A DNA stretch of 64,000 nucleotides, from NCBI GenBank assembly GCA_964036295.1, contig OZ038473.1, positions 5,239,501 through 5,303,500 on the forward strand, written 5' to 3'. The translations under genes were made by a program, and so were the position numbers. Each line of letters starts with the position of its first letter. Position 1 is the stretch's first letter. Source of the stretch: Plumapathes pennacea (lineage: Eukaryota > Cnidaria > Anthozoa > Antipatharia > Myriopathidae). Below the pieces are notes generated by a model that saw only the letters and a program-made list of their open reading frames with translations, searched no databases and was not told the origin of the DNA. Shown here one piece after another: positions 3,410-58,906 of this stretch.

Positions 3410-3527
3410 AGTTGGACCCTGGGTGCCAGAGGTTTCTCGCTCTCGGAAGGGCTGAGGACGAAACCCCGGGCGGAGGAGGACTGGGGGCGAGGCGAGAGAA
3501 CCTTTGGGCGCGCGCGGTACGAATATC
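3410..3527 (+). repeat. Interspersed repeat, copy 1
   Basis: A GC-rich segment beginning near CCTGGGTGCCAGAGG and ending near GCGCGGTACG. A diverged copy lies in inverted orientation at 11740-11880, sharing the TTTCTCGCTCTCGGAAG core and the GAGAGAACCT block. It may be a SINE. No tRNA-like A/B boxes were confirmed. The two copies flank the 4.4-11.2 kb tandem array but are not part of it. Confidence 0.6.
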
Positions 3528-4342: not shown

Positions 4343-4440
4343 AGATATATGCACTTTCAAGTATTAATTCAATTTTAAGATATTACTGTCAGAATATAAA
4401 CATCGATAGTTAGTTAGATATCCAACTGGCAATGTAACTA

Positions 4441-4702
4441 CAATCAAATGCAAAAGTAGTTGAGACACTGTGCATATTTTGAGCAATTTATCGGCTTTTA
4501 AGTTTTGTTTATTTCTGCGCCCCCTCCCCCCGTCTCAATGTTGTTCGGGCCTGAAATCTCACTGTACGATATTGGATACTCAACATTGAAACGGGGGAGG
4601 GGGGGAAAGATGATGTCAAACGCAATCCAGATAAGAGAGACGGAACAGAAGCGAAAATTGGGTCTTTTTTTGCGAGTGTCTCAACCATTTTGCATTTGAT
4701 TG
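4441..4702. mobile_element. Foldback MITE, array copy 1
   Basis: 262 bp. The left end CAATCAAATGCAAAA...GTTGAGACACT is the inverse of the right end AGTGTCTCAAC..TTTTGCATTTGATTG. A second inverted pair lies inside: CCCCCTCCCCCCGT..CAATGTTG against CAACATTGAAACGGGGGAGG. The arms are imperfect across their length. The left outer flank ends in TA. TA target sites are typical of Tc1/mariner-like elements, but the family is not proven. It has no coding capacity of note. Confidence 0.85.
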
Positions 4703-5179
4703 TCTGAAGCGGTTAATGTGCTATTTCTCTGTGAATATTTGAGGTATCTGCATAGAATTTGCAGAACGTACGCATGGTCCGACTACCGTTTGCAAAACAG
4801 TTAGGAATGTGTTACAACGGCAGTTTTCGAGATTTGGCAAGGAATTTCCTTTGTAAATTGAACGTTTTTAAACGCACATAATTGTCACAGCTGGGTATCC
4901 GTCTTATTAAACCTTACTTTACTCACTGTCTATTGATGTGAAAGTTCAGTGATGTACGTCATGTCATTTTCTGGTTTTCAGTAACCATTCTGGAACAGCT
5001 GATGTAGTCTTTACGTGTTCGGCCCTCACTTTAGGCCTAAAATGGGCTGTGAGGTATACGTGCGTAAGAGCAGGCGTGACTCTGTTTACGCGCGATAGCG
5101 TGTTAACGCCTAAACAATTTTAGGGAAAGAAGTCACACTCAGTACTAATGCACCTTTTTTACCTATAATTTGTGTGTGC

Positions 5180-5187
5180 TATATAAA
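5180..5187 (+). promoter_or_regulatory. TATA box, cassette 1
   Basis: TATATAAA lies 103 bp upstream of the ATG of the 41-codon ORF, in a stretch that looks like a core promoter (GCTATATAAACCTGG then a pyrimidine-rich CACCTGC). Identical copies at 6815, 8450 and 10085. Transcription is not shown. Confidence 0.5.
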
Positions 5188-5289
5188 CCTGGGGTTTTCA
5201 CCTGCTTTCAAACATTCTCGCTGAGTTTATACATTGTTTAGGCAGTTCAATCGTTATCTGAGTGCATCAGAATATTACAGAAACGAGAC

Positions 5290-5415
5290 ATGGAAGACAT
5301 TCAACCGTATTTATCAGAACTAGACGGTTGGGATGACGGTCAAAATTTCCCATCTGAACCAAGCACAACATTGCCCATTGGACAGGCACCTGAAGTGAAT
5401 GAGACACATAAATAA
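5290..5415 (+). CDS. 41-codon acidic ORF, cassette 1
   Basis: ATG at 5290 and TAA at 5413-5415. The product starts MEDIQPYLSELDGWDDG, is acidic and Pro/Thr rich near the middle, and ends NETHK. It sits downstream of a TATA box and an untranslated leader of plausible length. It may be the truncated N-terminus of a former transposon protein, since shifted frames downstream still look partly protein-like (IPAEEQKDIPPYPKC), or a genuine short peptide. No family is recognised. Confidence 0.35.
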   Translation: MEDIQPYLSELDGWDDGQNFPSEPSTTLPIGQAPEVNETHK

Positions 5416-5604
5416 TGTGATTGACGAGCGAGAAACTGTGATACTGTCTGTGCGATGACGAGTATTCAATTTTAGCTATCGGATTCCCGCAGAGGAGCAG
5501 AAAGACATTCCACCGTACCCGAAATGCTTCTCTAAGCTTATTCTCGGCCGAAATTGAGTGAACGATCATCACAATGTCCAGCAGATTCATTTCCGTGAAG
5601 ATTT

Positions 5605-5710
5605 CAACGGTCTACCACGGTCTACCACGGTCTACCATGTAAACAAAAGATTATTTACATAATTCCTTTTGTTCTGATGGTAGACCGTGGTAGACCGTGG
5701 TAGACCGTTG
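5605..5710. repeat. Palindrome of 10-bp motifs, cassette 1
   Basis: Two 34-bp arms are perfect inverted repeats. Each arm holds three head-to-tail copies of ACGGTCTACC, a 10-bp period of about one helical turn. The stem continues inward with AACAAAAG pairing CTTTTGTT, leaving a short A/T loop. It could be a protein-binding array or a hairpin. Identical copies at 7240, 8875 and 10510. Confidence 0.9.
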
Positions 5711-5910
5711 GATTTCTGTCAAAACAGGTTTTTGTTTTCGCCAATTAGCTTTAAAATAGTGAGAGTTCATTGAACAAAACGTAACATGCACGAAATAGCC
5801 TCCATAGTGTTTATTTCAGGCCGTATTTGTGGCAAACATACCATCAATTAATAACACACCGGAAGTAATATTGTACTAGTCTTATCCCGTCATTTCCGGA
5901 AATTTCAAAT

Positions 5911-6117
5911 TTGATACAATTTGGAACATTAAAAGCTAATCGCCCCACCTCCAAAGAACCTTGGGACTTAGTTTTCCTAATAGAAGATAACACAGTGATG
6001 AATCATACCAAAAATCGCCTTTCAAAATTGAAAAAAGACGCTCTGAGCCAGCATTTTCGACACATGACTTTCAGACAATCAAATGCAAAAGTAGTTGAGA
6101 CACTGTGCATATTTTGA
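5911..6117 (+). other. Open frame across the cassette/MITE junction, cassette 1
   Basis: A 68-codon open frame beginning at TTG, not ATG, that crosses into MITE copy 2. It recurs at 7546, 9181 and 10816 only because the array repeats. Lys/Arg rich with no recognisable domain. Not regarded as a gene. Confidence 0.2.
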
Positions 6118-6337
6118 GCAATTTATCGGCTTTTAAGTTTTGTTTATTTCTGCGCCCCCTCCCCCCGTCTCAATGTTGTTCGGGCCTGAAATCTCACTGT
6201 ACGATATTGGATACTCAACATTGAAACGGGGGAGGGGGGGAAAGATGATGTCAAACGCAATCCAGATAAGAGAGACGGAACAGAAGCGAAAATTGGGTCT
6301 TTTTTTGCGAGTGTCTCAACCATTTTGCATTTGATTG
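6076..6337. mobile_element. Foldback MITE, array copy 2
   Basis: Identical to the copy at 4441-4702. Here the left neighbour is TTTCAGA and the right neighbour TCTGAAG, so the inverted symmetry extends a further six to seven bases beyond the element. This differs from the TA flanks at the array ends. Confidence 0.85.
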
Positions 6338-6814
6338 TCTGAAGCGGTTAATGTGCTATTTCTCTGTGAATATTTGAGGTATCTGCATAGAATTTGCAGA
6401 ACGTACGCATGGTCCGACTACCGTTTGCAAAACAGTTAGGAATGTGTTACAACGGCAGTTTTCGAGATTTGGCAAGGAATTTCCTTTGTAAATTGAACGT
6501 TTTTAAACGCACATAATTGTCACAGCTGGGTATCCGTCTTATTAAACCTTACTTTACTCACTGTCTATTGATGTGAAAGTTCAGTGATGTACGTCATGTC
6601 ATTTTCTGGTTTTCAGTAACCATTCTGGAACAGCTGATGTAGTCTTTACGTGTTCGGCCCTCACTTTAGGCCTAAAATGGGCTGTGAGGTATACGTGCGT
6701 AAGAGCAGGCGTGACTCTGTTTACGCGCGATAGCGTGTTAACGCCTAAACAATTTTAGGGAAAGAAGTCACACTCAGTACTAATGCACCTTTTTTACCTA
6801 TAATTTGTGTGTGC

Positions 6815-6822
6815 TATATAAA
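6815..6822 (+). promoter_or_regulatory. TATA box, cassette 2
   Basis: Identical repeat of the 5180 TATATAAA, upstream of the ORF at 6925. Confidence 0.45.
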
Positions 6823-6924
6823 CCTGGGGTTTTCACCTGCTTTCAAACATTCTCGCTGAGTTTATACATTGTTTAGGCAGTTCAATCGTTATCTGAGTGC
6901 ATCAGAATATTACAGAAACGAGAC

Positions 6925-7050
6925 ATGGAAGACATTCAACCGTATTTATCAGAACTAGACGGTTGGGATGACGGTCAAAATTTCCCATCTGAACCAAGCA
7001 CAACATTGCCCATTGGACAGGCACCTGAAGTGAATGAGACACATAAATAA
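6925..7050 (+). CDS. 41-codon acidic ORF, cassette 2
   Basis: Exact duplicate of the ORF at 5290-5415 with the same TATA spacing. Confidence 0.3.
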   Translation: MEDIQPYLSELDGWDDGQNFPSEPSTTLPIGQAPEVNETHK

Positions 7051-7239
7051 TGTGATTGACGAGCGAGAAACTGTGATACTGTCTGTGCGATGACGAGTAT
7101 TCAATTTTAGCTATCGGATTCCCGCAGAGGAGCAGAAAGACATTCCACCGTACCCGAAATGCTTCTCTAAGCTTATTCTCGGCCGAAATTGAGTGAACGA
7201 TCATCACAATGTCCAGCAGATTCATTTCCGTGAAGATTT

Positions 7240-7345
7240 CAACGGTCTACCACGGTCTACCACGGTCTACCATGTAAACAAAAGATTATTTACATAATTC
7301 CTTTTGTTCTGATGGTAGACCGTGGTAGACCGTGGTAGACCGTTG
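7240..7345. repeat. Palindrome of 10-bp motifs, cassette 2
   Basis: Exact duplicate of 5605-5710. Confidence 0.9.
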
Positions 7346-7710
7346 GATTTCTGTCAAAACAGGTTTTTGTTTTCGCCAATTAGCTTTAAAATAGTGAGAG
7401 TTCATTGAACAAAACGTAACATGCACGAAATAGCCTCCATAGTGTTTATTTCAGGCCGTATTTGTGGCAAACATACCATCAATTAATAACACACCGGAAG
7501 TAATATTGTACTAGTCTTATCCCGTCATTTCCGGAAATTTCAAATTTGATACAATTTGGAACATTAAAAGCTAATCGCCCCACCTCCAAAGAACCTTGGG
7601 ACTTAGTTTTCCTAATAGAAGATAACACAGTGATGAATCATACCAAAAATCGCCTTTCAAAATTGAAAAAAGACGCTCTGAGCCAGCATTTTCGACACAT
7701 GACTTTCAGA

Positions 7711-7972
7711 CAATCAAATGCAAAAGTAGTTGAGACACTGTGCATATTTTGAGCAATTTATCGGCTTTTAAGTTTTGTTTATTTCTGCGCCCCCTCCCCC
7801 CGTCTCAATGTTGTTCGGGCCTGAAATCTCACTGTACGATATTGGATACTCAACATTGAAACGGGGGAGGGGGGGAAAGATGATGTCAAACGCAATCCAG
7901 ATAAGAGAGACGGAACAGAAGCGAAAATTGGGTCTTTTTTTGCGAGTGTCTCAACCATTTTGCATTTGATTG
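7711..7972. mobile_element. Foldback MITE, array copy 3
   Basis: Identical to 6076-6337, including flanks. Confidence 0.85.
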
Positions 7973-8449
7973 TCTGAAGCGGTTAATGTGCTATTTCTCT
8001 GTGAATATTTGAGGTATCTGCATAGAATTTGCAGAACGTACGCATGGTCCGACTACCGTTTGCAAAACAGTTAGGAATGTGTTACAACGGCAGTTTTCGA
8101 GATTTGGCAAGGAATTTCCTTTGTAAATTGAACGTTTTTAAACGCACATAATTGTCACAGCTGGGTATCCGTCTTATTAAACCTTACTTTACTCACTGTC
8201 TATTGATGTGAAAGTTCAGTGATGTACGTCATGTCATTTTCTGGTTTTCAGTAACCATTCTGGAACAGCTGATGTAGTCTTTACGTGTTCGGCCCTCACT
8301 TTAGGCCTAAAATGGGCTGTGAGGTATACGTGCGTAAGAGCAGGCGTGACTCTGTTTACGCGCGATAGCGTGTTAACGCCTAAACAATTTTAGGGAAAGA
8401 AGTCACACTCAGTACTAATGCACCTTTTTTACCTATAATTTGTGTGTGC

Positions 8450-8457
8450 TATATAAA
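8450..8457 (+). promoter_or_regulatory. TATA box, cassette 3
   Basis: Identical repeat of the 5180 TATATAAA. Confidence 0.45.
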
Positions 8458-8559
8458 CCTGGGGTTTTCACCTGCTTTCAAACATTCTCGCTGAGTTTAT
8501 ACATTGTTTAGGCAGTTCAATCGTTATCTGAGTGCATCAGAATATTACAGAAACGAGAC

Positions 8560-8685
8560 ATGGAAGACATTCAACCGTATTTATCAGAACTAGACGGTTG
8601 GGATGACGGTCAAAATTTCCCATCTGAACCAAGCACAACATTGCCCATTGGACAGGCACCTGAAGTGAATGAGACACATAAATAA
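8560..8685 (+). CDS. 41-codon acidic ORF, cassette 3
   Basis: Exact duplicate of the ORF at 5290-5415. Confidence 0.3.
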   Translation: MEDIQPYLSELDGWDDGQNFPSEPSTTLPIGQAPEVNETHK

Positions 8686-8874
8686 TGTGATTGACGAGCG
8701 AGAAACTGTGATACTGTCTGTGCGATGACGAGTATTCAATTTTAGCTATCGGATTCCCGCAGAGGAGCAGAAAGACATTCCACCGTACCCGAAATGCTTC
8801 TCTAAGCTTATTCTCGGCCGAAATTGAGTGAACGATCATCACAATGTCCAGCAGATTCATTTCCGTGAAGATTT

Positions 8875-8980
8875 CAACGGTCTACCACGGTCTACCACGG
8901 TCTACCATGTAAACAAAAGATTATTTACATAATTCCTTTTGTTCTGATGGTAGACCGTGGTAGACCGTGGTAGACCGTTG
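8875..8980. repeat. Palindrome of 10-bp motifs, cassette 3
   Basis: Exact duplicate of 5605-5710. Confidence 0.9.
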
Positions 8981-9345
8981 GATTTCTGTCAAAACAGGTT
9001 TTTGTTTTCGCCAATTAGCTTTAAAATAGTGAGAGTTCATTGAACAAAACGTAACATGCACGAAATAGCCTCCATAGTGTTTATTTCAGGCCGTATTTGT
9101 GGCAAACATACCATCAATTAATAACACACCGGAAGTAATATTGTACTAGTCTTATCCCGTCATTTCCGGAAATTTCAAATTTGATACAATTTGGAACATT
9201 AAAAGCTAATCGCCCCACCTCCAAAGAACCTTGGGACTTAGTTTTCCTAATAGAAGATAACACAGTGATGAATCATACCAAAAATCGCCTTTCAAAATTG
9301 AAAAAAGACGCTCTGAGCCAGCATTTTCGACACATGACTTTCAGA

Positions 9346-9607
9346 CAATCAAATGCAAAAGTAGTTGAGACACTGTGCATATTTTGAGCAATTTATCGGC
9401 TTTTAAGTTTTGTTTATTTCTGCGCCCCCTCCCCCCGTCTCAATGTTGTTCGGGCCTGAAATCTCACTGTACGATATTGGATACTCAACATTGAAACGGG
9501 GGAGGGGGGGAAAGATGATGTCAAACGCAATCCAGATAAGAGAGACGGAACAGAAGCGAAAATTGGGTCTTTTTTTGCGAGTGTCTCAACCATTTTGCAT
9601 TTGATTG
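9346..9607. mobile_element. Foldback MITE, array copy 4
   Basis: Identical to 6076-6337, including flanks. Confidence 0.85.
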
Positions 9608-10084
9608 TCTGAAGCGGTTAATGTGCTATTTCTCTGTGAATATTTGAGGTATCTGCATAGAATTTGCAGAACGTACGCATGGTCCGACTACCGTTTGCAA
9701 AACAGTTAGGAATGTGTTACAACGGCAGTTTTCGAGATTTGGCAAGGAATTTCCTTTGTAAATTGAACGTTTTTAAACGCACATAATTGTCACAGCTGGG
9801 TATCCGTCTTATTAAACCTTACTTTACTCACTGTCTATTGATGTGAAAGTTCAGTGATGTACGTCATGTCATTTTCTGGTTTTCAGTAACCATTCTGGAA
9901 CAGCTGATGTAGTCTTTACGTGTTCGGCCCTCACTTTAGGCCTAAAATGGGCTGTGAGGTATACGTGCGTAAGAGCAGGCGTGACTCTGTTTACGCGCGA
10001 TAGCGTGTTAACGCCTAAACAATTTTAGGGAAAGAAGTCACACTCAGTACTAATGCACCTTTTTTACCTATAATTTGTGTGTGC

Positions 10085-10092
10085 TATATAAA
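10085..10092 (+). promoter_or_regulatory. TATA box, cassette 4
   Basis: Identical repeat of the 5180 TATATAAA. Confidence 0.45.
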
Positions 10093-10194
10093 CCTGGGGT
10101 TTTCACCTGCTTTCAAACATTCTCGCTGAGTTTATACATTGTTTAGGCAGTTCAATCGTTATCTGAGTGCATCAGAATATTACAGAAACGAGAC

Positions 10195-10320
10195 ATGGAA
10201 GACATTCAACCGTATTTATCAGAACTAGACGGTTGGGATGACGGTCAAAATTTCCCATCTGAACCAAGCACAACATTGCCCATTGGACAGGCACCTGAAG
10301 TGAATGAGACACATAAATAA
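10195..10320 (+). CDS. 41-codon acidic ORF, cassette 4
   Basis: Exact duplicate of the ORF at 5290-5415. Confidence 0.3.
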   Translation: MEDIQPYLSELDGWDDGQNFPSEPSTTLPIGQAPEVNETHK

Positions 10321-10509
10321 TGTGATTGACGAGCGAGAAACTGTGATACTGTCTGTGCGATGACGAGTATTCAATTTTAGCTATCGGATTCCCGCAGAGG
10401 AGCAGAAAGACATTCCACCGTACCCGAAATGCTTCTCTAAGCTTATTCTCGGCCGAAATTGAGTGAACGATCATCACAATGTCCAGCAGATTCATTTCCG
10501 TGAAGATTT

Positions 10510-10615
10510 CAACGGTCTACCACGGTCTACCACGGTCTACCATGTAAACAAAAGATTATTTACATAATTCCTTTTGTTCTGATGGTAGACCGTGGTAGAC
10601 CGTGGTAGACCGTTG
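10510..10615. repeat. Palindrome of 10-bp motifs, cassette 4
   Basis: Exact duplicate of 5605-5710. Confidence 0.9.
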
Positions 10616-10980
10616 GATTTCTGTCAAAACAGGTTTTTGTTTTCGCCAATTAGCTTTAAAATAGTGAGAGTTCATTGAACAAAACGTAACATGCACGAAA
10701 TAGCCTCCATAGTGTTTATTTCAGGCCGTATTTGTGGCAAACATACCATCAATTAATAACACACCGGAAGTAATATTGTACTAGTCTTATCCCGTCATTT
10801 CCGGAAATTTCAAATTTGATACAATTTGGAACATTAAAAGCTAATCGCCCCACCTCCAAAGAACCTTGGGACTTAGTTTTCCTAATAGAAGATAACACAG
10901 TGATGAATCATACCAAAAATCGCCTTTCAAAATTGAAAAAAGACGCTCTGAGCCAGCATTTTCGACACATGACTTTCAGA

Positions 10981-11242
10981 CAATCAAATGCAAAAGTAGT
11001 TGAGACACTGTGCATATTTTGAGCAATTTATCGGCTTTTAAGTTTTGTTTATTTCTGCGCCCCCTCCCCCCGTCTCAATGTTGTTCGGGCCTGAAATCTC
11101 ACTGTACGATATTGGATACTCAACATTGAAACGGGGGAGGGGGGGAAAGATGATGTCAAACGCAATCCAGATAAGAGAGACGGAACAGAAGCGAAAATTG
11201 GGTCTTTTTTTGCGAGTGTCTCAACCATTTTGCATTTGATTG
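10981..11242. mobile_element. Foldback MITE, array copy 5 (right border)
   Basis: Last copy. It is followed by TAGCTAGC, not TCTGAAG, and so marks the right border of the array. With the TA before copy 1 this gives matching TA dinucleotides around the whole array. Confidence 0.85.
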
Positions 11243-11739
11243 TAGCTAGCTTAAGTCCAATTTTTAATTCCTAATTTATAGATTTTATCAACACGGCCAC
11301 ATCAGTTCTAATGCTGCAGTCGCCTAACACCGTATATAAATAAATGACATTATATGTGAATTGAAAAGGGAAACCAAGCAATATTGGTTTCAAAAGGTAC
11401 TTCAAATCACGAGCGGACAAACGGGCACAGACATCGGGAACCACTTAGAAAATTAGCGACTTTCCCAAGCCAGTCGGCAGCACCGTGAGCACATCTTTCC
11501 TCAGGATGTACTGCACAATTGTCTTTCGTTGTTCTGGCTTCAAACTTGTGATTTCGGGAAACTTAGAACGAATTGTTTCGGCAATTGGTAAAGACACTTC
11601 GAGAAACAATACTTTCCATGTTGGATTTCACGCTTTGACCTTGAACCGGTTTGACAAGTTTCAGACTATCCAATCAGAAAGATTTTGACTCGGAAACCTC
11701 ATGACGGCTTTTGATTGAGTCAGCACGTTCAAAGAACGT
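11243..11739. other. Non-coding stretch
   Basis: No supported gene. A CACGAGCGGACAA word near 11410 recurs in inverse orientation near 14672 and might belong to the ends of the decayed Harbinger between them, but no convincing terminal inverted repeat was found. Confidence 0.35.
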
Positions 11740-11880
11740 ACCGCGTGCGCCCAGAGGTTCTCTCACCTCGGCTCCGCCTAGCCCCCAGTTCCCATCCGTC
11801 CATGGGTTCGTCCCCAGCACTACGCGGCCACCCTGCTCAGAGCTTCCGAGAGCGAGAAACCTCTGGCACCCAGGTTAGGA
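11740..11880 (-). repeat. Interspersed repeat, copy 2
   Basis: Inverse, diverged copy of the repeat at 3410-3527. It has an extra GGGGACGAACCCATGG-type segment in the middle. Confidence 0.6.
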
Positions 11881-17164: not shown

Positions 17165-20100
17165 TTAAGAGCGAATTCTCCTAAACACCGAGTGAAATGA
17201 GAAAAATGTGGCACATCAGTCGAAAATCGGGGTTCTTCATATTTTGTCCAGAGATAGCCTATGGTGTGCCAATTACTCTCGTATATTTATTTTGTTCAAA
17301 CATTTTTGGAATTTCAAGAAAAAACTTAAAACCACTACGCCTCAAAATGACTAAAATGAAAGGAATTAATAGGACCACAAAAGCCTTCGCACGCGACCGC
17401 GCAACAGAGTTCTGTTCTTAAATGTTTTCAACTATTGATTAAGAAGACATCCACGAGCAATTTGAGCCTATAAATAGAATTATAGGTCAAATATTGAATA
17501 TCTGGTGTCGGGGCAAAGACAGCCCAAATTTCAATGCTCGCAAATCTCAGTTCAGAGCACTTTTTCAAAAAATCATTTCTATGTCCGGTATTACTCAGAT
17601 TTGCACAAATATTCGGTTGTTATATCTAGAAGTGTTGTTTTTATTAAGAATATAAAAATTAGTTTGGTACTTTTCATTACTCGAAAGAACTAACGCGGCT
17701 AATTTTGCCAAAATCACAACGTCGACTTGTAAACAACGCGCAACGATCAATTCACACTTTCGAATAAACTCGAACAAAAACTTCGCCCTCTACCTCAAAC
17801 TTGGCACAAAACTCTGTAGGAGACCTTATAATAAGTTTAGCTTTCGAAACCACCGGTTAACGATTGATTTATGTGGTTTTTTCCTATCAAAATGCCTCTT
17901 CGACTCAGAGGTCGACAAGCGCTAACTGATCGCTTCACTTTCTTTGCCAATTTACGCCTCATTTCGCTTTATTCTGCTACAATATAGCACAAATATGTTT
18001 CCAAGGATGTCCCTGCCGCTTTAAGAGCTCTTTCTTGTAAAAAATAAAATAGTCATGCAGTCAAAACATACGCGCCGACGTCGCCGTGGTTCGTTATTGG
18101 TGTCACGCAATCTTGAAACTCAGCGAGATATGTTTATTCTATTTAGTTATACTGACCCAAAAATATATTAACTTTGTTTTGCCATTATCGCTAACAGGAA
18201 TGAAAATGCGACATAAAACTTTATTATTTAGGTATCAAAGTGGCCAAATAATGAACCAGGACAACAGGAACCATAAACTAGAGTGGTTATGGCCTGAGTA
18301 ATCAAAACAGCACGAAGGCAAAAGTAACTCTTCTGACTTGACATTGTACCGTACACGTTATTAGAAGCTGCAAGACAACTTTATAGAAAATATCCCCAAA
18401 ACGTTTCCCCCCCTCCCCCCATACATCGCCAGAAATTTCAGACATCCGGTTGCGCCATCTCGGAAGAGGCATCAGGTTTCACGCTGACAGCCGCTCAAGA
18501 AATAACAAAGAAATGTATGGGATCTGATAATAAATTGTGCTTTTCGCTTAACTGAAGCACGTTCGTAAAAATGTCTGTACAGCATTCGGAAGAGGAAAGC
18601 TTCCTAAACACAACAGTACAAAAAATATTTATCTCCGGTAAAATTCGATGTGTACTTTTTTGAATTTAAAATTTCGGCCGACGTAAGAAGGGATTGATAG
18701 CAGAATACGCTCAAAACCGGCTACTGTCACTTTTTAAGCTGCATTTAATACAAGAACCTTGGGTAAAACGCAAAATGTCTACCCCGTACCTGATTGTCGA
18801 AGGATTGAACATCTCCTGTGAAGCCTCAGTCAGTCCAGTGGAGCAAATTCGATGTGTACTTTTTGTGTTTGAATTTGCAGTTCACAGCCAGCCATGGCGA
18901 ATACCTCCCGTGAAATACGCTGACTTCGGATGTTGATATTTTGGGCTGGGAAGCTCCAAATCGCATGAAAATTGTACCAAACGAAAGCTAATTTCAACTA
19001 GGTCGTTCAGCGGCACGTCTCCTAAACGTAGCAGTCTCTTTTTGAACCGGAGAAACCCATCCCTCCCCCACCCCACTGAGGCAAAGTACGTAACAATGTT
19101 GAATGTGTGAATGGCGCATGCTCATACCGCACGCCGCTGGGAAAGACCGGAAGCAATCGTGGACGCAAAATGTCCGGAATTTCTGGCGATGCCCAGAAAC
19201 GGATTATTATATATTTTGGTCTCCCCCCCTCTCTCTCTCTCTCTCTGGCAATTTCAATTTCCTCCAATACATTATTTATACTTTACAACTTTGAGACTCC
19301 ACTCCGTCCCATACAATTGTGTCATAAACTGGCTTGGGGAGAAAAGTGCCCTTCCATTAAATCAAAAATCAAAAATCAAAAATCAAAAATCAAAAATTCC
19401 AAAAGCGGCAACTTTTAAGTTAAAAGTCCTGTCCTGTATATATGGCCCGGGGACGCTAGCCTGGGCGCGCCAACTATTCGCACATTTTTTTATTATAAAT
19501 CGAAGCGAGCGTGTACAAAGTGATATAAGTTACAGTAGTCTACTTGAAATAGTTTTAGTATGTACCGTAATGCACTGCAGATAATCTTAAAGTTATATTT
19601 TCCGTTGTTCTTTTTTTTTAATTGTACCAAAGAGAAGATATGAAGCCAGATTTGGAAACGAATTTCCTATCAGAGCAGATAACAAATTATAAAAAAAGAC
19701 TTGACGCACGTACTGAACCAGCCGGCGAAGGATTGCCCTAGAGAGCGCTTTGTTGATCCCGCGATCAGCCTTGCGCGATTTCCCTTTCTCACCATGTCTG
19801 CATAGGCCCGCTGGAACTCGGCAACGCTGCGATCTTTTGCGCCAACCAATTCGCAAAGAATAGCGGTGTGAAGCGCAAATCGTCAATTTTGATATATCAG
19901 ACGGCGGAGTAAATATTGACGCCCGTGCTAATATCAATTCAACTTCGGTCTCAACATCGCTTATCCCATCGCCTTTTTGTGCCCCGAAATATCCTTATTA
20001 CAGGAAAAAAGAACTTATCTCCATTACAGACTCGCCTCCGCTTCTCAATTTGCCAAATCTGTTTTGAAAAACTAAAACCTTTATGTCATTGTTGCTATCT

Positions 20101-21537
20101 TTTCCTAACATCTAACGGCAGCTGCTCCTACAACCAATATAGGTATTCATTTTGGTGTGTTGGGAAAAAGTAAAACGGAAGTTGCCCCGCCCGACCCCGC
20201 CTTTACGAGTCCTTTCATTTTCTTTTTTTCCCCTCGGCACTGAGTAACAAAACAAGACGGCCACTGAATAGAAAGAAAAATACGGTAAATAAACTAAAAT
20301 ATTAATCTCTGTTATTGATGTAAATTTGAGAAGAGGTCTTATTAGAGCCGAGAAAAAAAAATTCACACACACACAACAACAACAACATGAGGGTGTCTGA
20401 ATGGGTGAATAAATGCAATATTTTTATAAGTCATGCGCTTCACTAACAGATAAAACTCTCGAGAGACAGTCACATAAATAAAGATTTCTTGCCAGTTAGG
20501 CCAGTAATAAAATGTAGATATTACTTCTTTGTCAGTTTCTCATTAGATCTGTGTGCAGTTCATTAAGCCGGATCCGGTAAAATAATTCGTTTTGGTAAAT
20601 AAATTAAAGTCATCTCAGTTTAAAATCCAGGAGCCACTAAAAGCTACTGATCTTATCATGTTTTATTTGTGTATAAATAGTATAAATATATATATACAGG
20701 GACATCCTTGGAAACATATTTGGGCTATATTGTAGCAGAATAAAGCGAAATGAGGCGTAAATTGGCAAAGAAAGTGAAGCGATCAGTTAGCGCTTGTCGA
20801 CCTCTGAGTTGAAGAGGCATTTTGATAGAAAAAAAACACATAAATCAATCGTTAACCGGTGGTTTTGAAAGCTAAACTTATTATAAGGTCTCCACAGAGT
20901 TTTGTGCCAAGTTTGAGATAGTAGGCGAAGATTTATTCGAGTTTATTCGAAAGTGTGAATTGATCGTTGCGCGTTGTTTACAAGTCGATGTTGTGATTTT
21001 GGCAAAATTAGCCGCGTTAGTTTTTTCAAGCAATGAAAAGTACCAAACTAATTTTTATATTCTTGATAAAAACAACACTTCTAGATATAACAACCGAATT
21101 TTTGTGCAAATCTGAGTAATACCGGACATAGAAATGATTTTTTGAAAAAGTGCTCTGAACTGAGATTTGCGAGCATTGAAATTTGGGCTGTCTTTGCCCC
21201 GACACCAGATATTCAATATTTGACCTATAATTCTATTTATAGGCTCAAATTGCTCGTGGGTGTCTTCTTAATCAATAGATGAAGACATTTATGTGTAGAG
21301 TTTTGTTGTGCGGTCGCGTGCAAAGGTTTTTGTGCTCCACCAAATCCTTTCATTTTAACCATTTCGATTGGTATGGCGATTTTTCAAAAATTTCACGAAA
21401 TGAAAAAGTTTCCAGACAAACTAAATATACCAGAGTAATTGGCAAACCTTAGGTTATCTATTGAAAAAATAAAAAGAACCCCGAATTTTGACTGATGTGC
21501 CACTCCTCACCCGGTCAGAAAAAAAAGTCGCTCTTAA
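17165..21537. mobile_element. 4.4-kb foldback element bounded by TTAA
   Basis: Long inverted arms of about 850 bp at 17169-18018 and 20694-21533 surround a 2.7-kb core. The arms are nearly identical from TCTATTTATAG through to AGGATGTCCCTG and more diverged toward the outside. Each outer end reads TTAA then GAGCGA, so a TTAA target duplication is likely. TTAA targets are typical of piggyBac and Kolobok superfamilies. No transposase ORF was found in the core, so it is non-autonomous or internally deleted. It lies in a copy of the repeat also found at 40.9 and 61.3 kb. Confidence 0.75.
18019..20693. other. Core of the TTAA foldback element
   Basis: No recognisable coding region. It contains a pyrimidine C-run near 18407-18420, a (CT)n tract at 19229-19246, an (AAAATC)n repeat at about 19360-19397 and a (CA)n/(CAA)n tract near 20364-20388. 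TTCGATGTGTACTTTTTG-like words recur near 18645 and 18848, hinting at a short internal duplication. Confidence 0.5.
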
Positions 21538-24216: not shown

Positions 24217-24403
24217 ACAAAAGGAAAAAACAGTAGGTTGGTTGTGATCGTCCGGGTTAGAGTAGTCTCCAGAAAGACTGTTGTTGGTGACTGACGTTTC
24301 GACTACCTGAGCGGAAGTCATCTTCAGAGTCAAGTGAAAAGTATTCGTCAAATGGCGGAATATATGTCTCTGGTTGTAGAAGTGATTGGTCCGTTATGTC
24401 GGT

Positions 24404-24695
24404 CTATGGTTGGTCGAGTCGGTTTGGTTGTGTTTCGTTATTGGTCAGTTGATGTTCTTTTGTCCTGTTGATTAGTCTATTGTTCGTTCGGTTGCGTTTG
24501 ATGTCATCTATCAGTCGTTTGTAAGGTGCCGGTAGTTGTTGACATCTATTGAGTGGTTTCCGTTCTAAGTTTGTGTACCAGCTTTCCAGTGTAAGTCGTT
24601 GGTAGTAGTTGGTACTGTGGCTGATGCATTCAGCAGAGTCCCAGTTGATGTCGTGTTTAGTCTGTCGGTGGTGTTCAGAAATGTGATTTCTGATG
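24404..24695 (-). pseudogene. Inverted copy of the Penelope C-terminal tail
   Basis: The minus strand reads the same tail as the plus ORF: RNHISEHHRQTKHDINW, ECISHSTNYYQRLTLESW, RLIDDIKRNRTNNR. It is part of the left palindrome arm and lacks the GIY-YIG start. Confidence 0.8.
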
Positions 24696-25330
24696 CGTTT
24701 GACAACACTCACAAGAACACCGCACCCAACGAGACTACCGACAACGAAACCACTAACGACACAACTCCATTGACCTTGGCCACACTACCGTATATCAGAG
24801 GCACCTCTGAGACGATAGCACGTATTCTACGACCCTACAACATCCGGGTAGCCCACAAACCCATCACGACTCTACGCGACTTACTGACCAACGTAAAGGA
24901 CAAAGACGAACCCATCAACAGACAGGGAACAGTATACAGAATATCTTGTACTGACTGCAAAGCCACCTACATCGGTGAAACTGGCAGAAACCTGAACACG
25001 AGACTTACTGAACACAAACGAGCTACCAGAAACGGCGACATCAGAAATCACATTTCTGAACACCACCGACAGACTAAACACGACATCAACTGGGACTCTG
25101 CTGAATGCATCAGCCACAGTACCAACTACTACCAACGACTTACACTGGAAAGCTGGTACACAAGCTTAGAACGGAAACCACTCAACAGATGTCAACAACT
25201 ACCGGCACCTTACAAACGACTGATAGATGACATCAAACGCAACCGAACGAACAATAGACTAATCAACAGGACAAAAGAACATCAACTGACCAATAACGAA
25301 ACACAACCAAACCGACTCGACCAACCATAG
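24696..25330 (+). CDS. GIY-YIG endonuclease, C-terminal part of a Penelope-like Pol
   Basis: Open frame to TAA at 25328-25330. It begins within the coding region; there is no ATG and no reverse transcriptase. In order: a Thr/Asn-rich linker; LPYIRGTSETIARILRPYNI and KPITTLRDLL, which in Penelope-like proteins precede the nuclease; then GTVYRISCTDCKATYIGET, GRNLNTRLTEHKRA and IRNHISEHH. These are the GIY-YIG core with its CxxC pair, catalytic arginine region and downstream histidines. A basic tail follows. The nuclease cuts target DNA for insertion. The reading frame is intact but truncated at its 5' end by the palindrome junction. Confidence 0.85.
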
Positions 25331-25547
25331 ACCGACATAACGGACCAATCACTTCTACAACCAGAGACATATATTCCGCCATCTGACGAATACTTTTCAC
25401 TTGACTCTGAAGATGACTTCCGCTCAGGTAGTCGAAACGTCAGTCACCAACAACAGTCTTTCTGGAGACTACTCTAACCCGGACGATCACAACCAACCTA
25501 CTGTTCACACTCCTGGGTTCAAACCATTTGCCACAAAAGGAAAAAAC

Positions 25548-40345: not shown

Positions 40346-40570
40346 ATTTCACCTTTTACGATAAATTAACAGGATTATAGCTTTGACAAGATGACGACGC
40401 CCAATACAATGGAAAGTGGAATTTTCGTACTGTAAGAGGACTGCTCTATACAGTGTATTTTGAAATCATTGAAGACGTAAACAATAGTGTTTTGGGTTTT
40501 GTTTCCTTTGCTGGAAAAGAGCTAAAGCTATGGCTTTCAGGAACCGGTGAGTTTTAAAAAATTACATAAA

Positions 40571-41507
40571 CTAGACTGGCGTTGCCAGTGAGCTCGCGGC
40601 GTGAGTTGCATCGAGACCCGAATATACTAAAATGGAAAGTAGGGACAAGAGCAGAACTCCCAAGAGAAACTTCCAGTTTCTCACCAGAAAAATATCACAC
40701 AGTATAAAGAACTTGGCTATTGATACCTTGCTCAAATGAAACCTGATTAAACTATAAATTATCATTACAACACTCATACACTTGCTTCTTGAAGGTTGAG
40801 CGACTCTGCACTTTGAGCTTAGGAGCGAAGGCGTCAGCCGGAAAGAAAAGCTGAGTAATGCGTGACATCATTTTATGCACAGTCGATTTTGGCACTTATT
40901 TCTAATCAGAGGCCACGATTAATACAGCCTTCGCTTCAATACTTAACTGTCTCTTTTATTAACTGAATGCGTTTCTTTTAGCAGGCTTTCGAGTATTCGT
41001 GCTCTGCAGCAAATATAAAATTGAAAACGAGGAATGTAACACGATACTTGTTTACAATATTATTGCGGTTTTGTTCACAGCGCGTTCAGTCCATTTGTGA
41101 CTGCAAACTCAATGCTCAGGACTATTTCGGTGTATTTTTCATTGCTAGTATACAATGACCACTGCGAAACAAAGGCTACATGATTGAATGGAAGAAACAT
41201 TTCACGGCAATGTGCGATAAACAGAAGCATTTTATGAGTCAACAGATGTCATGTACAGTGTAAATCATAAATTGCCATTGTTTTACGGCTAAAGCTCATC
41301 GTAGTTTTGGTTTCCGTTTTCGGCCTGTTATCTTCCCAGAAGTATTTCGTGTCGCCACAGAAAGTTTCGTCGGGACTAAATAATTAGCGGCGACAGAGGT
41401 ATTTGCAATCCCGTAGCAGTATCCATCAAATATCGAATCCACCAAATTTCCGCGGTGAACTTGGGAATTAACGCAAGCCAAAATCATTCCCTAAAATCCA
41501 GTTTATT
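40571..41507 (-). repeat. Minus copy of the CTAGACTGGCG TIR element
   Basis: Inverse of parts of 58907-61640: the end CTAGACTGGCGTTGCCAGTG, the CACGCATTACTC block, and the block around ACCGCAATAATATTGTAAAC. This copy is not interrupted by the Helitron-type fragment, so it preserves the empty site (near 41060-41082). Its other terminus is missing. Confidence 0.75.
41296..41487 (-). CDS. Small conserved ORF of the TIR element
   Basis: ATG at 41487 and TGA at 41296-41298; 63 codons. The C-terminal part (YGIANTSVAANYLVPTKL, SVATRNTSGKITGRKRKPKL) is conserved with 59277-59459, including the stop position, while bases between are diverged. That suggests past coding constraint. No family recognised. 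Confidence 0.35.
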   Translation of the reverse strand: MILACVNSQVHRGNLVDSIFDGYCYGIANTSVAANYLVPTKLSVATRNTSGKITGRKRKPKLR

Positions 41508-41919
41508 GATAATGAATAAATAAATAAAATAGATACACGTATGCGGTTAGGATACAGCGTTGGCTGGATCAATTGAGGTTTTTCGTAAAATTCATAAACA
41601 TTTCGGTTTCGACTCTACTGACTTTGCAAAAACTGATCGAATCACGATTCTAGTTCCCCTCTTATTGGCTTGCACTATGAGTATTCTGTAGTTGCGTGTA
41701 AAAGTTATCTCAACGAATTTTGGAGTTCAGCTAGTGTTCATAAAAATTGCAGACTGTGCACGTTGTCTGAACTAAACCAGACTGCCGTGCGAACAAATAT
41801 TTTTTTTAGCAGCCGACTTGTGACGTTGCTATACAACCGTGGTTTGTAAAAAAGATTTCAAAATAATCTCCTAGAGGAAAATAAACAAGCACCCCGCTTT
41901 CCGATAACCCACTACGGAG
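41508..41919. other. Non-coding stretch
   Basis: No gene or repeat recognised. Confidence 0.35.
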
Positions 41920-42495
41920 CGAGGGGATATCTGTGATTATAACATAGTCACGATATAAACCACGTTCTGATTGGTCGAAGAGCGTGCTCCATAACTTTAT
42001 TGTGCATGCCCGGCCATGCTCAATAATATGACGTGAGCAAATACCGCTTCCTTTCGACTTTTTCTAGCTTTCCTAGTTTAAAAATTAACAGGCGCTTTAC
42101 AACTCAAAATAAAATAGCTTTATTTTCCCGAAGAAGTTTGTGCTATGGAGTCACACCGGTAATCCAAAGGAAAAGATGCCTGAAAAATTCTGTATTTCAA
42201 CGGTCGGCACAGAAAATTGTATAAATCAAAACCTACCTATTTCTTGGCGGCTTAAGTCTCATGGAAGGTGAAATCCATCACAGCAAAGATAGATATCCAT
42301 CAAGCCTCCAACTGCTTTGAAATGAAACGGCGTTCATTCATTCTGAAAGCCACCATACTTGTAGTGTTTACAGTACAGTTTGCTGGCTGCTCGAACAACA
42401 AACAAGTCTGCTCGGCAAACATTTTTATCTCTTTCGTAGATGGTCGGACTGCTCACAATGGTCGACTGATTACTTTGCATTTCCAGACCCGCATT
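41920..42495 (-). repeat. Exon-bearing repeat, uninterrupted copy A
   Basis: Inverse of 52330-52771 joined to 55343-55465. The minus strand carries the counterpart of the ATG exon, here damaged (ATGGTGGCTTTCAGAATGAA, then changes and a stop), and a splice donor-like ATAGGTAGG. The site CCTTTCG at 42050-42056 is the empty target of the element inserted at 52772. Confidence 0.75.
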
Positions 42496-49215: not shown

Positions 49216-51103
49216 GGCTGTGTTTTACAAGTACCACTTTTGACCATTTTTATAATGGATTCAGCAAAAAGTGGGAAACTTTATTCCAAAGCAATGCAAA
49301 TCAAATTAAAGTTTAAGGTTCCATCTACAACTTTCCGCAATAAAACTTTTTGGCCTCAATCTCCTTCAGTGTGCGGTGTACTTCCGAATTTCACTCACTT
49401 CGCCGTTTTTGCCGTAAATTCGCCTGCTAGTAGAATGCCACAATTGGCGATTTTAATTGCTGTAAATTCTCCCAACCAAGCCTCATAATGTTTTAGGCAA
49501 CTGATAAGGCCAGTAGAGCGGATATTTGGTAGATTTGTGTGAGTTTTGAGCCATAAAACATCTGCGAGAGCCACCAGACTCACCCGACGTGCTAAAGGTC
49601 ACGCACCACACAATTTGCCAGTCGCCGCCAACGGCGAAATTTAATAAACAAACACTCACTTGGAGGATATACATCCGGAAATACATCATTAGTGATTTTT
49701 GCTGCACTCTTTTTCAAAGAAACACACTCTCATGACTGTGACACTTGTTATGAATAATTTCTGTGTTACTTGATTGACAAGTGAGTGTCAAACTCAATGA
49801 GTCATGTCTATTTTTAGATTGAAAGAAGTCAAACGTTTCTCCTACACTTGACCACTGCTCTCGGGGTATAAGTTTTTTTCTTGTGTAAAAAAATCCTGCA
49901 TATTTTGCGCTGAAGAAATCTTCTGTACTGGTACGCAGTCTGCTGATGAGAGAGCGTTTTTGGTATTCAGTTAATGTTTCTTAAAGTAAAAGTTTGGATG
50001 CTATGTATTATGCACTTTTCAAACAAAAGTGCGATCGCCGACTTTTGTGTTTGCATGTTTTCTGTTCTGGAACTCTTGGAAACATGAACATGCTGTAATA
50101 TCCTGTAATTTCCAATCAGGTCGGCTTTCCTGTCTCTTGACTTGAACGAAAATGAGATTTCACGCTCAAGCCTTTTAGCTTATTCGTGCGGTCATGGGCG
50201 CTTTATGGGGTGCTTGAGAGAGGTCATGAACAACTCTTTCCTAAATTTCCTGTTCAATCTCCATCTGTTCACTGGCCAAATCCCGGGACGGGGGGAGGGG
50301 TACTCATCTTAGTTTTGTGTGCCGCCCGGTCCCGAAAACCGTACCCTTACCATATTTCAGACCAAATATCTGATTTTCTATACCCTATTTTAGACCTGAC
50401 TCCAAAATGTATACTCTAATCTAGAGTTTTTTCTTTAGCATCGATTTCCGATTGTTGTTTCTTCCATTTGTTGTGCAATGTCCGCAGCGACACTGGTTTC
50501 TGTTCACTACTGACCATAGTCCCAGAACAAAAATACTAAATCTATACCCTATTTCAGACTAAAAATGTTTGAAAACGATACCCTTTGGGGCGCACATATA
50601 CCTATGGGCTTATGACCCCCCACCCTGGGGGGCCAAATCATCGTCGTTTGCATTTGTCGATTTCTTCATCATTTTCGATGATATAAGATGTGCTCCCACT
50701 TTGACACTCCGTTCAAGTCAAGAGACAGGAAGCAGGAATATAGGTAGGGAGGTTCCACTGACTATAAAACCCTGACTGTATTCAAGACACCGTGTAAATT
50801 AAGACAAAAGCTCTAATTTGTGACCCTGATCAAGACTGGACCAATAATTACCCTAGATAAGTTATATCGCGTGAAAATTATGGCCAGGGGGAGGAGGTGG
50901 AGGAGATAAATCATGGGAGGGGGGGGGGGGCGATCACGCTTTTGTTTGAAAAATACATAGTGCATACGCATCCAAACCTTTACTTTAAGATACATTAAAT
51001 GAATACCAAAAGACCTCTCTCATCAGCAGACTGCGTACCAGTACAGAAGATTTTTTCTGTGCAAAAATACGCCGGTTTTTTTTTTTGTTTTTTTGTTTTT
51101 GTT

Positions 51104-51135
<32 letters not shown>

Positions 51136-51907
51136 TACACAAGTATCATCTCTCGAAAGTGTAAATTGGAAAAACTATACCCTGCGAGCAGTGGTCAAGC
51201 GTAAGAGAAATCACTGCTCGCAGGGTAAAATAACTAATTGTTTCTTTGATGCAATTAACTTTAAGTTGCAAAGTTTGTGTGAGAGAGAAAAAGCCGTTTG
51301 ACTTCTTTCGATCTAAAATTAGACATGACTCATTGAGTTTGACACTCGCTTGTCAATCAAGTAACACAGAAATTATTCATAACAAGTATCACAGTCACGA
51401 GAGTGTGTTTCTTTGAAATAGAGTGCAGCAGAAATCACTAATGATGTATTTCCGGATGTATATCCTCCAAGTGAGTGTTTGTTTATTAAATTTCGCCGTT
51501 GGCGGCGACTTGCGTGGTGCGTGACCTTTAGCACGTCGGGTGAGTCGGGTGGCTCTCGCAGACGTTTTATGATTCAAAACTCACACAAATCTACCAAATA
51601 TCCGCTCTGCTGGCTTTATCAGTTGCTTAAAACATTATGAGGCTTGGTTGGGAGAATTTACAGCAATTAAAATCGCCAATTGTGGCATTCTACTAGCAGG
51701 CGAATTTACGGCAAAAACAGCGAAGTGAGTGAACTTCGGAAGCTCACCGCACACTGAAGGAGATTGAGGCCAAAAGGTTTTATTGCGGAAAGTTGTAGAT
51801 GGAACCTTAAACTTTAATTTGATGTGCATTGCTTTGGAATAAAATTTCCCACTTTTTGCTAAATTCATTATGAAAATGGCCAAAAGTGGTCCTCGTGAAA
51901 CACAGCC
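49216..51907. mobile_element. 2.7-kb foldback element
   Basis: Left arm 49216-50037 is the inverse of 50931-51907, starting GGCTGTGTTTTAC and ending in CACAGCC. Matching blocks include TGGCGATTTTAATTGC, CACTTGGAGGATATAC and TTTCAAACAAAAG. The right arm is about 150 bp longer because of a (TTTTG)n tract at 51070-51135 and a CCCTGCGAGCAGTG hairpin near 51180-51227. No transposase ORF. A second, inner inverse pair (CTGTCTCTTGACTTGAACG near 50130 against 50715) shows that the centre was once part of the foldback too. Confidence 0.75.
50283..50640 (+). repeat. CCCTATTTCAGAC repeat, copy 3
   Basis: Within the centre of the foldback. Same orientation and borders as 26895-27260 (GTGTGCCGCCCGGTCCCGAAA to GATACCCTTTGGGGCGCAC). 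Confidence 0.8.
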
Positions 51908-52329: not shown

Positions 52330-52771
52330 TAGCAGACAATGCGGGTCTGGAAAAGCAAAGTGATCCTTCAAAGAATGTGAACAATCACCATGAACGAAAG
52401 AGAAATGTTTGCCGAGCGGACTTGTTTGTTATTCGAGCTGCCAGCAAACTGTACTGTACTGTAAACATTGCAAGTATGGCGGCTTTCGGAATGAATGAAC
52501 GCCGAGGCTTGAAGGATAATTATCTTTGTTGTGATGAATTTCACTGTCCACGAGAATTAAGCCGTCGAGAAATAGGTGAGTTTTGATTCATACAATTTTC
52601 TGTGCCGACTGTTGAAATACAGAAGATTTCAGACTTGATTACTGATTTCCTTTGGGCGCCGGTGTGACTCCATGTAGTACAAATTTCTTCAGAAAAATAA
52701 AGCTTTTCTTTCTCTAAGTTGTAAAGCGCTGGTTAATTTTTAAACGAGGAAAGCTAGAAAATGTCGAAAGG
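52330..52771 (+). repeat. Exon-bearing repeat, copy B, left half
   Basis: Same family as 41920-42495 (inverted) and 23690-23850. Interrupted after CGAAAGG (52765-52771) by the element at 52772-55342 and continued at 55343. Confidence 0.75.
52476..52575 (+). CDS. Possible first exon carried by a repeat
   Basis: ATG in a good context (CAAGTATGGC), then MAAFGMNERRGLKDNY, LCCDEFHCPRELSRREI, then donor ATAGGTGAGT at 52576. The reading frame is closed soon after if not spliced. The counterpart in copy A is damaged. This could be the first exon of a transposon gene or a captured host exon. The Cys/His content (CC, then HC) hints at zinc binding. No family recognised. Confidence 0.35.
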
Positions 52772-55342: not shown

Positions 55343-55465
55343 CGAAAGGAAGCGGGATTTGCTCACGTCATGTTATTGAGCACGGCTGGGCGTGCACAAT
55401 AAAGTTATGGGGCACGCTCTTCGACCAATCAGAACTTGGCTTATATCGTGACTATGTTATAATAT
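55343..55465 (+). repeat. Exon-bearing repeat, copy B, right half
   Basis: Starts with the duplicated CGAAAGG, then AAGCGGGATTTGCTCACGTC, GTGCACAATAAAGTTATGG and ATATCGTGACTATGTTATA, matching the inverse of 41930-42056. Confidence 0.75.
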
Positions 55466-58019: not shown

Positions 58020-58906
58020 TAGGTTACAATATACTTCTCAGAAGTTTTCAATATTGTTGCATTGTTGCCTAGTACATGTACAAAAGCAAAAAAATCCCAT
58101 GCCATAAAAATATAACCCTAACCCTATACTCTCCTCCTCCTCCCCCCCCCCCCCCCCGTGAGTGAAAATGGAAAAATACATTAGAAACATACAATAATTG
58201 TAAAGAATATTAGACAAAGGAGATTAAGATTCGCACATTATCCACCACTGGAAGATGCTGTGAGACATGAGAAGAGCATCAGTTTAGTTCTGTATTGACA
58301 TTCTTATCTTAAAAAAGTCTCATTTCCCATGTCATGTGGGTATAAACTAACTCTTCCTAATCACAGAAAGATACCTTTTCCAGTTGGACTTAGTGAACTT
58401 CATGTTTGTCTTCATATTAGGGACCTATGGAAAACAAAACAAGCATCAAAGTATATAATTTAGAATGTTGTCAAGTGTGCTGGAGATAGGTGGGTGGGGA
58501 ATAATATCTCACCAGAAACTTGTTCAAAAGAAAACTTATTAAACTAACATCACCAATTCTATCTAGGAAAAGGAAGAAATTAATGTAGTAAAGAGCTGGC
58601 TTAAGTAAAATGATACTAGGGTGAATGCAAATTGACTCGTTTGGCTTATAATTATGCATCTTTGCAAATTGATTGTTGACGTTCAGTCCACTGAAGGCAT
58701 TTACTTGTCAGTGTTATCTAATTTGAACTTGTTTAGATCATGGCAATTTTTTTCTACCCACACCAGCTACTAAATACAGTAAATATCTTCTGAGCATTAC
58801 TTTATATACAGTAATGCATATAGTACAGCTAAAGAGCTAATTCAAAAAAAGCAAAAAGAAATGTAGCAATAAATTACGTTCTTTTCCTGGTACCAAATTG
58901 ACAAAA
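58020..58906 (+). repeat. Duplicated segment, copy 2
   Basis: Same as 27466-28334 with small differences, including a C-run at about 58141-58157. Ends AAATTGACAAAA, where the TIR element is inserted. Confidence 0.85.

Follow-up and report, generated by a model that had tools for sequence, protein, structure and literature searches.

How do four copies of a 1635-bp unit come to stand in tandem without a single letter of difference among them? The question is raised by positions 4441-11242 of a 64,000-nucleotide stretch of the antipatharian Plumapathes pennacea (the window: C12:5239501-5303500 of a 290-Mb assembly), which consist of four letter-identical units (4441-6075, 6076-7710, 7711-9345 and 9346-10980) and a 262-bp end copy; 10981-11243 matches bases 1-263 of the unit exactly. 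We call the 262-bp foldback repeat M, and the 1373 bp separating M copies INT. The array as a whole, (M-INT)4-M, results from one transposon insertion and lies between 2-bp TA target duplications. In our judgment it is very probably a tetramer of a non-autonomous, composite-like DNA transposon that grew by unequal exchange between M copies, with nicking by a Rep-like protein as the likely trigger. The M copies are long terminal direct repeats, each with its own inverted ends, the element inserted with a 2-bp target duplication, and relatives with the same ends carry convergent genes for a Rep-like protein and a Tc1/mariner transposase of the DD34E type.

Structure and insertion site of the array

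A preliminary description of this stretch had reported four identical 1635-bp units with a fifth 262-bp element, a foldback repeat fused to a cassette and tandemly amplified, and within the unit a TATA-like motif, a short open reading frame (ORF) and a palindrome. This layout is exact to the base, with the TA flanks confirming the coordinates; the joining and tandem amplification are borne out, the three unit features are all present, and the reported lack of drift is true of the window array in the assembly sequence. M folds back along its own length (z = -8.2), and the inner palindrome of INT, a 106-bp iteron hairpin, is strong (z = -15.4). The features are listed below, with the strand where one applies.

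4439..4440: left target-site duplication TA, CTAG target; the empty site L059 has one TA
4441..4702 (+): M copy 1, left terminal foldback repeat, 262 bp, CAATCAAATGC...GCATTTGATTG
4703..6075 (+): INT copy 1, 1373 bp, derived from a parent with Rep and transposase by two internal deletions
5180..5189 (+): TATA-like motif (by eye) upstream of the Rep N-terminal ORF, period 1635 bp
5290..5415 (+): 41-aa ORF, the Rep-like N-terminus; repeats at +1635, +3270 and +4905
5404..5411 (+): junction of deletion 1, which removed the larger part of Rep; INT 1-702 and 709-1206 lie ~1.2 kb apart in L066 and L067
5420..5545 (+): Rep-like C-terminal remnant of 42 codons with one in-frame stop; also 7055-7180, 8690-8815 and 10325-10450
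5605..5710: iteron hairpin, three 10-bp repeats per arm, sitting between the Rep and transposase places of the parents
5899..5908 (+): junction of deletion 2 (transposase gene gone)
6076..6337 (+): M copy 2, internal, common to the adjoining units
6338..7710 (+): INT copy 2
7711..7972 (+): M copy 3
7973..9345 (+): INT copy 3
9346..9607 (+): M copy 4
9608..10980 (+): INT copy 4
10981..11242 (+): M copy 5, the 262-bp repeat at the right end
11243..11244: right target-site duplication TA

The element starts with CAATC at 4441 and ends with GATTG at 11242 in a CTA...TAG context, and TA at 4439-4440 and 11243-11244 bounds the array. When the window flanks were joined with a single TA, they aligned to L059 over 335 of 339 positions without a gap, which is the empty site, and they also matched L060 (97% over 212 bases). 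In a genome search with the joined flanks, from which a simple-repeat stretch was omitted, 38 of 42 rows crossed the junction (best 40 of 58 candidates scored). Consequently, the array sits in one copy of a repeat family, and the other copies of that family are without it.

Target duplications recur throughout the window family. In a survey of 32 site entries, confined to loci with both outer ends, the outer dinucleotides were identical in 30, comprising 21 TA (five of these being paralogs of one insertion) and 9 TT, CT, TG, TC or AA. The preceding base was C in 31 entries and the following base G in 28, so that the site is usually C(NN)G. Seven of the entries come from two paralogous groups, five on C4 and the others being L010/L009 and L018/L058. 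Three further entries with both ends match too (L032, TA; L061, GG; L064, TT). The array-internal M copies that were examined are bordered by GA and TC, unlike the outer ends, and consequently they are not separate insertions. Outside the array, a short and diverged inverted repeat (3418-3521 / 11737-11874, 66.7%) was noted in the window, and an older element with terminal inverted repeats (TIR) may enclose the array.

Two-gene parents and the origin of INT

Parents of the window element were traced through M pairs of unusual spacing. Two complete M-bounded parents were found, C12:7169589-7173765 (L066 + L079) and a copy on C10 (L067 + L080), each of ~4.18 kb and flanked by TA/TA. Both have the order M, INT 1-702, Rep-like gene, INT 709-1206 with the hairpin, minus-strand transposase, INT 1197-1373, M, and the two genes are convergent. 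Comparison of this order with the INT of the window identifies the latter as a parent with two internal deletions. A 77-aa piece of the Rep-like sequence of a third copy, L061, has 97 matches in the genome, two of them inside the complete M-bounded parents. This L061 (C2:22707900-22711400) carries Rep and transposase, has a mostly deleted left M, and shows GG/GG as outer dinucleotides; either the deleted form has itself moved, or the deletion of the left M is later than the insertion. Other independent internal deletions of INT between M copies were seen in L063 and L064 (INT 76/1121 and 677/1225).

The transposase of L061, L066 and L067 matches the Pfam domain DDE_3 (E=9.1e-13, 48.7 bits against a cut-off of 28.6), and a match to HTH_Tnp_Tc3_2 falls just under its cut-off. 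In L061 there are 34 residues between the second aspartate and the glutamate, and DD34-type spacing is expected of Tc1/mariner transposases. The open transposase frame of this copy has 307 aa, with the N-terminal part in a separate open piece. Judging from its location within M-bounded elements, the transposase presumably acts on the M ends.

The second gene is likely, although not proven, to encode a HUH Rep with an SF3-type helicase. Between its INT-like ends, L061 codes for the motifs GGLHYHMAIKL, NYYSAWKYVTKED and GPANCRKTF, which we take to be the HUH motif, motif III and Walker A; Rep proteins of the CRESS type (circular Rep-encoding single-stranded DNA) are defined by a HUH motif, a Y-x-x-K motif and an SF3 helicase. 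Rep-like open frames of 488-489 aa are present in L068 and L070, and eight frames or pieces could be aligned with the motifs kept (HYHMAIKL, YVTKED, GPANCGKT, FLNDFRW) at 35-93% identity to the first sequence. Weak helicase matches were obtained with PPV_E1_C of papillomavirus E1 (2 of 8 members, 0.016) and Parvo_NS1 (1 of 8, 0.014), and one weak match with the PHROG 'rolling circle DNA replication initiation' (E=0.052). The first member by itself had no Pfam match at E 0.1, and two scans of IMG/VR, each with a single protein and thus reaching close relatives only, revealed no viral relatives.

These parents change the meaning of the unit. The preliminary description had taken it for a MITE joined to a promoter cassette; INT is instead an internal-deletion derivative of a two-gene transposon with no captured regulatory piece, and its TATA-like motif together with the 41-aa ORF represents the start of the Rep-like gene. 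In a relative, L077, a single frame runs MEDIMEYLSDQEGSDD... directly into Rep, and the 41-aa ORF is thus the Rep N-terminus. The remnant at 5420-5545 matches the Rep of L068 (54.8% over 42 aa, E=1.4e-10, tblastn). None of 18 aligned copies of the ORF has an internal stop, L023 having a 2-bp deletion near the end, and its variable sites number 11, 6 and 15 at codon positions 1, 2 and 3, a weak bias that is no proof alone. A functional tandem promoter array, or an emerging satellite kept for its own sake, would be in line with the TATA-like motif in the unit, with an ORF free of stops in 18 of 18 copies, and with arrays that reach 24 kb. We consider it extremely unlikely, since the ORF is what remains of the Rep N-terminus, most units among those fetched are dispersed transposon copies, and the arrays are short. 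Of the readings raised in the preliminary description, the tandem promoter array gained no support, and the young satellite is a loose fit at best, the longest array seen having 24.3 kb.

The two 50-bp bins of the iteron hairpin are the least variable in INT among the 18 aligned copies, and, as a separate observation, the number of 10-bp repeats per arm varies from 1 to 3 among them with an almost constant loop. Matches of the hairpins to microRNA families in Rfam were dismissed as generic hairpin matches, all 22 of 22 rows being under the gathering score.

Other candidates for the autonomous parent were rejected. The 11.5-kb C4 locus L009/L010 contains a Tnp2 domain (PF02992, CACTA-type), which lies in a guest insertion within INT; the guest has ends of its own and is flanked by a duplication of 3 bp, TAT (by eye). 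A large Tnp2 guest was seen in the INT of both L009/L010 and L018, with ends rich in GGTACATTTT-like repeats (by eye). An open frame near the 3' border of INT, considered as a possible captured exon, had no Pfam match in the L009 copy. A CACTA reading of the array ends themselves was dropped in view of the 2-bp duplication. The incomplete matches L039-L044, where examined, have an INT that is broken or ended by unrelated sequence, and in L042 it is interrupted by an element that looks DIRS-like by eye.

Unit number and the growth of arrays

A genome-wide search with the 1635-bp unit, as the preliminary description had proposed, gave at least 136 matching rows (best 39 of 251 candidates scored), and chance is ruled out. 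M ends with up to 3 mismatches occur at least 229 times as left and at least 222 times as right ends, and a reversed control pattern gave 0. INT-bearing copies fetched from the window family have n = 1 (e.g. L012, L020, L023, L025), 2 (L014), 4 (the window) or 6 (C3:15963066-15972993), and solo M copies with their own target duplication also occur (e.g. L035, L045-L047). The preliminary description had supposed such amplification to be rare; in this genome it is recurrent: with monomers, dimers, a trimer and a hexamer the architecture recurs at n = 1, 2, 3, 4 and 6 in the window family, and at 12 in a related one. That the assembly artificially multiplied a single copy to four is an idea that the exact identity of the four units would favor. 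It is very unlikely in light of the other arrays of the family in the same assembly, which have target duplications and distinguishable units. In the C3 hexamer one unit is 10 bp longer, two others have a common single-nucleotide polymorphism, and the remainder are identical, whereas the units of L013 differ pairwise by 3-10 substitutions and 5-38 gap positions.

The best mechanistic evidence comes from C4, where unit number has changed in place. The paralogs L013, L015, L016, L017 and L019 have 5' flanks that are 93.4-99.6% identical over ~900 bp and 3' flanks that are 97.8-98.9% identical over ~900 bp, except L015, whose 3' flank lacks one stretch with a 98-100% match on either side; one L015 unit also carries an insertion. 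Their common flanks indicate one ancestral insertion. Since this one insertion now has n = 3, 2, 2, 2 and 1, respectively, the number of units changes in place, for which unequal recombination among the M repeats is the simplest explanation. In L018 we observed INT-INT joins from which M is lost save for 3 bp, CAG, as after excision.

The core CAATGTTG/CAACATTG, with its C-rich and G-rich arms, is common to all four M types. A second family is represented by L062 (M 262 bp, INT 1663 bp, TA duplication), which has a related hairpin with the repeat GGTCAACC, compared with GGTCTACC in the window family, and carries part of a Tc1-type transposase frame without a Rep match. L068 and L070 have a left M of 158 bp and the form TA|CAATC...GATTG|TC, as judged from the left end. 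The fourth family includes a 12-mer at C11:15429963-15454278 (L069; 24.3 kb, M 254 bp, TA duplication), in which 12 Rep matches are spaced at exactly the 2005 bp of the unit. Its identity was read at the two ends, the middle not being fetched: 1 mismatch in 4233 positions at the low end, and 99.9% over 779 bases at the high end. Elsewhere this family has at least 22 monomer-like places (pieces 95-100% identical) and two dimers (best 39 of 646 candidates), rows in which the 12-mer itself is absent. The near-identical units, where read, and the many near-identical monomers suggest that the fourth family has probably been active recently. A transposase match adjoins Rep in L077 as well.

According to our interpretation, the DDE transposase would cut at the outermost M ends and insert M-INT-M or a solo M at CTAG-like sites. 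The direct 262-bp M repeats would then recombine unequally to give either a solo M or (M-INT)n-M, and later exchanges would hold the units alike. Nicking at the M hairpin by a Rep-like protein acting in trans would be the likely trigger that raises the rate of exchange. The same protein could act differently: by nicking M in an M-INT circle or in the chromosome it could initiate rolling-circle replication, with strand displacement leading to head-to-tail multimers that are inserted or made in place. Since the parents carry a Rep-like gene, with HUH-like motifs and an SF3-like helicase part, such multimerization, already suggested in the preliminary description, remains a serious rival, albeit in our estimate an unlikely one. 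It is also consistent with an M core kept across families although their Rep-like pieces, where compared, have 35-54% identity, and with the near absence of differences in the C11 12-mer where it was read. However, copy number changed at a fixed site in the C4 group, which favors recombination for at least one group. Moreover, the places listed for the fourth family, taken together with its 12-mer, do not form a graded series. It is possible, though doubtful, that this lineage unites two replication strategies in one element: a Tc1/mariner transposase for insertion, and a CRESS-like Rep for which the M hairpin would serve as origin and which would copy M-INT by rolling circle or nick-induced exchange, the arrays being its programmed product.

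Several points weigh against the reading of the array as a tetramer grown by Rep-triggered unequal exchange. The assignment of the Rep-like protein rests on motifs together with sub-threshold profiles: REP_ORF2-G2P was matched by 3 of 8 members with a best E=2.1e-5 (25.2 bits, under the cut-off of 27.8), Gemini_AL1 weakly by 3 of 8 (best E=0.018), and a comparison with the PDB gave no significant match. Its action on M is something we infer from sequence. The Rep gene is broken in all three parents read from the window family (L061, L066, L067), and the linkage of Rep and transposase was found at four loci (these three and L077), three of them of one family. The change in place was seen in one paralogous group, which is not that of the window array, and n = 4 in the window is a count in the assembly sequence. 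Outer dinucleotides are unequal at 2 of the 32 entries, L010/L009 and the solo L036. Finally, in only 7 of 18 rows did the left M resemble the right M of its own element more closely than it resembled the left M of any other tested locus, and homogenization between the ends is not general. The idea that M is renewed at each insertion in the manner of a long terminal repeat (LTR) was set aside on this mixed outcome.

Other repeats were noted in the window. Inverted arms of 467 nt, 99% complementary and 343 nt apart, at 24229-24695 / 25039-25505 probably form a young long foldback element. Those at 49216-50001 / 50968-51907, in blocks of 404, 219 and 99 nt (91-96%) with the innermost ~1 kb apart, probably belong to one long-TIR element, and a comparable inverted-arm element spans 17208-21503. 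Many inverted matches (85-93%) between 40563-42435 and 52392-61648 represent either an extensive inverted duplication or a single large element present in several copies. A tandem repeat with 69/138-bp units (92% matches at the 138-bp period) lies at 60508-60894 and is possibly coding, its period being a multiple of three.

Comparison with known systems

The lineage resembles Tc1/mariner (IS630) elements in DDE_3, DD34E, HTH_Tnp_Tc3_2 (under cut-off) and, less clearly, a mostly TA duplication, but differs from them in the second, Rep-like gene, the terminal direct repeats, the multimers and the non-TA 2-bp duplications. In IS26 the transposase is located within the repeat itself, and we know of no Rep-like gene there. 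The translocatable-unit arrays of IS26, also named in PMC9587614, are similar in that direct small elements alternate with a passenger unit, although they are bacterial. Small non-autonomous elements in tandem, some with intervening sequence, have been described as CMITE in corals (Wang et al. 2010, PMC2872659); these have TTAA (piggyBac-type) duplications, and the portion of that account used here notes no Rep-like gene or composite parent. LTR retrotransposons, including the miniature terminal-repeat forms (TRIM), have direct terminal repeats that lack long inverted ends of their own; they are ruled out, as M has such ends and the parent genes are a DDE transposase and a Rep-like gene, no reverse transcriptase search having been made on the parents.

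The nearest precedent for the pair of genes is the geminivirus-like transposon of Tuber melanosporum (Liu et al. 2011, PMC3198968), in which a Rep-like ORF and transposase ORFs are found in one repetitive element with inverted ends. As far as this report was available, the inverted ends are 37 bp long and there is no obvious target duplication; the main text does not use the word 'tandem' and leaves terminal direct repeats unmentioned. Replitrons and Helitrons also encode a HUH-type protein (PMC10741241). In the sections of that source used here, Replitrons are without inverted ends and have direct terminal repeats of 5-11 bp, and Helitrons are without inverted ends and target duplications, whereas the window lineage has inverted ends (CAATC..GATTG), 262-bp repeats and 2-bp duplications. 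Among the papers listed in our literature search, no title or abstract start announced a Tc1/mariner element that combines a Rep-like gene with direct repeats at its ends, a database-only record being possible as Repbase and Dfam were outside the search.

In architecture, the closest system is KolobokP, known to us from parts of Kojima and Bao (2022, PMC9587614), who call it unlike any other DNA transposon on account of its long terminal direct repeats (LTDRs). It has the composite-like form LTDR-INT-LTDR, with short inverted ends to each LTDR, solo LTDRs, (LTDR-INT)n-LTDR multimers usually between target duplications, and abutted INT-INT after loss of an LTDR. Autonomous copies in the Pacific oyster measure 4.0-4.7 kb and non-autonomous copies 1.7-3.3 kb, and two opposite-strand genes encode a DDE transposase and an accessory nuclease. 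The authors propose unequal crossover induced by this nuclease, or circles. The window family shares LTDR-INT-LTDR, the duplication-flanked solo and multimer forms, the INT-INT joins and a similar parent length, and these likenesses could speak for membership. Membership is nevertheless next to impossible, being already contradicted by the type of transposase that the sequence predicts: KolobokP has a Kolobok transposase and a His-Me finger homing nuclease, LTDRs of ~450 or ~660 bp, duplications of 3-5 bp and termini RR..YY, whereas here we find a Tc1/mariner transposase (DDE_3, DD34E) and a HUH/SF3 Rep-like protein, repeats of 262, 254 or 158 bp, 2-bp duplications and CA..TG. The second gene of L061, L066 and L067 is Rep-like where KolobokP has the His-Me finger nuclease, no dedicated His-Me search having been made.

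In conclusion, the window lineage appears to work like KolobokP without being a member of it. The elements reported here provide a worked case of a virus-like Rep gene carried by a eukaryotic transposon, and the pairing of a cut-and-paste transposase with a virus-like replication gene may explain the growth of arrays. A DDE transposase paired with a nicking or cutting enzyme and with long direct ends may be a general way in which tandem arrays are amplified and new satellites arise. A single assembly offers several families, forms from the monomer up to a 12-mer, and paralogous sites that differ in n, so that a link of the accessory enzyme with array growth can be tested. The architecture of KolobokP in combination with another transposase superfamily and another accessory enzyme suggests convergence and, if the arrays are indeed programmed and Rep-driven, the life style of KolobokP would have been invented independently with different enzymes.

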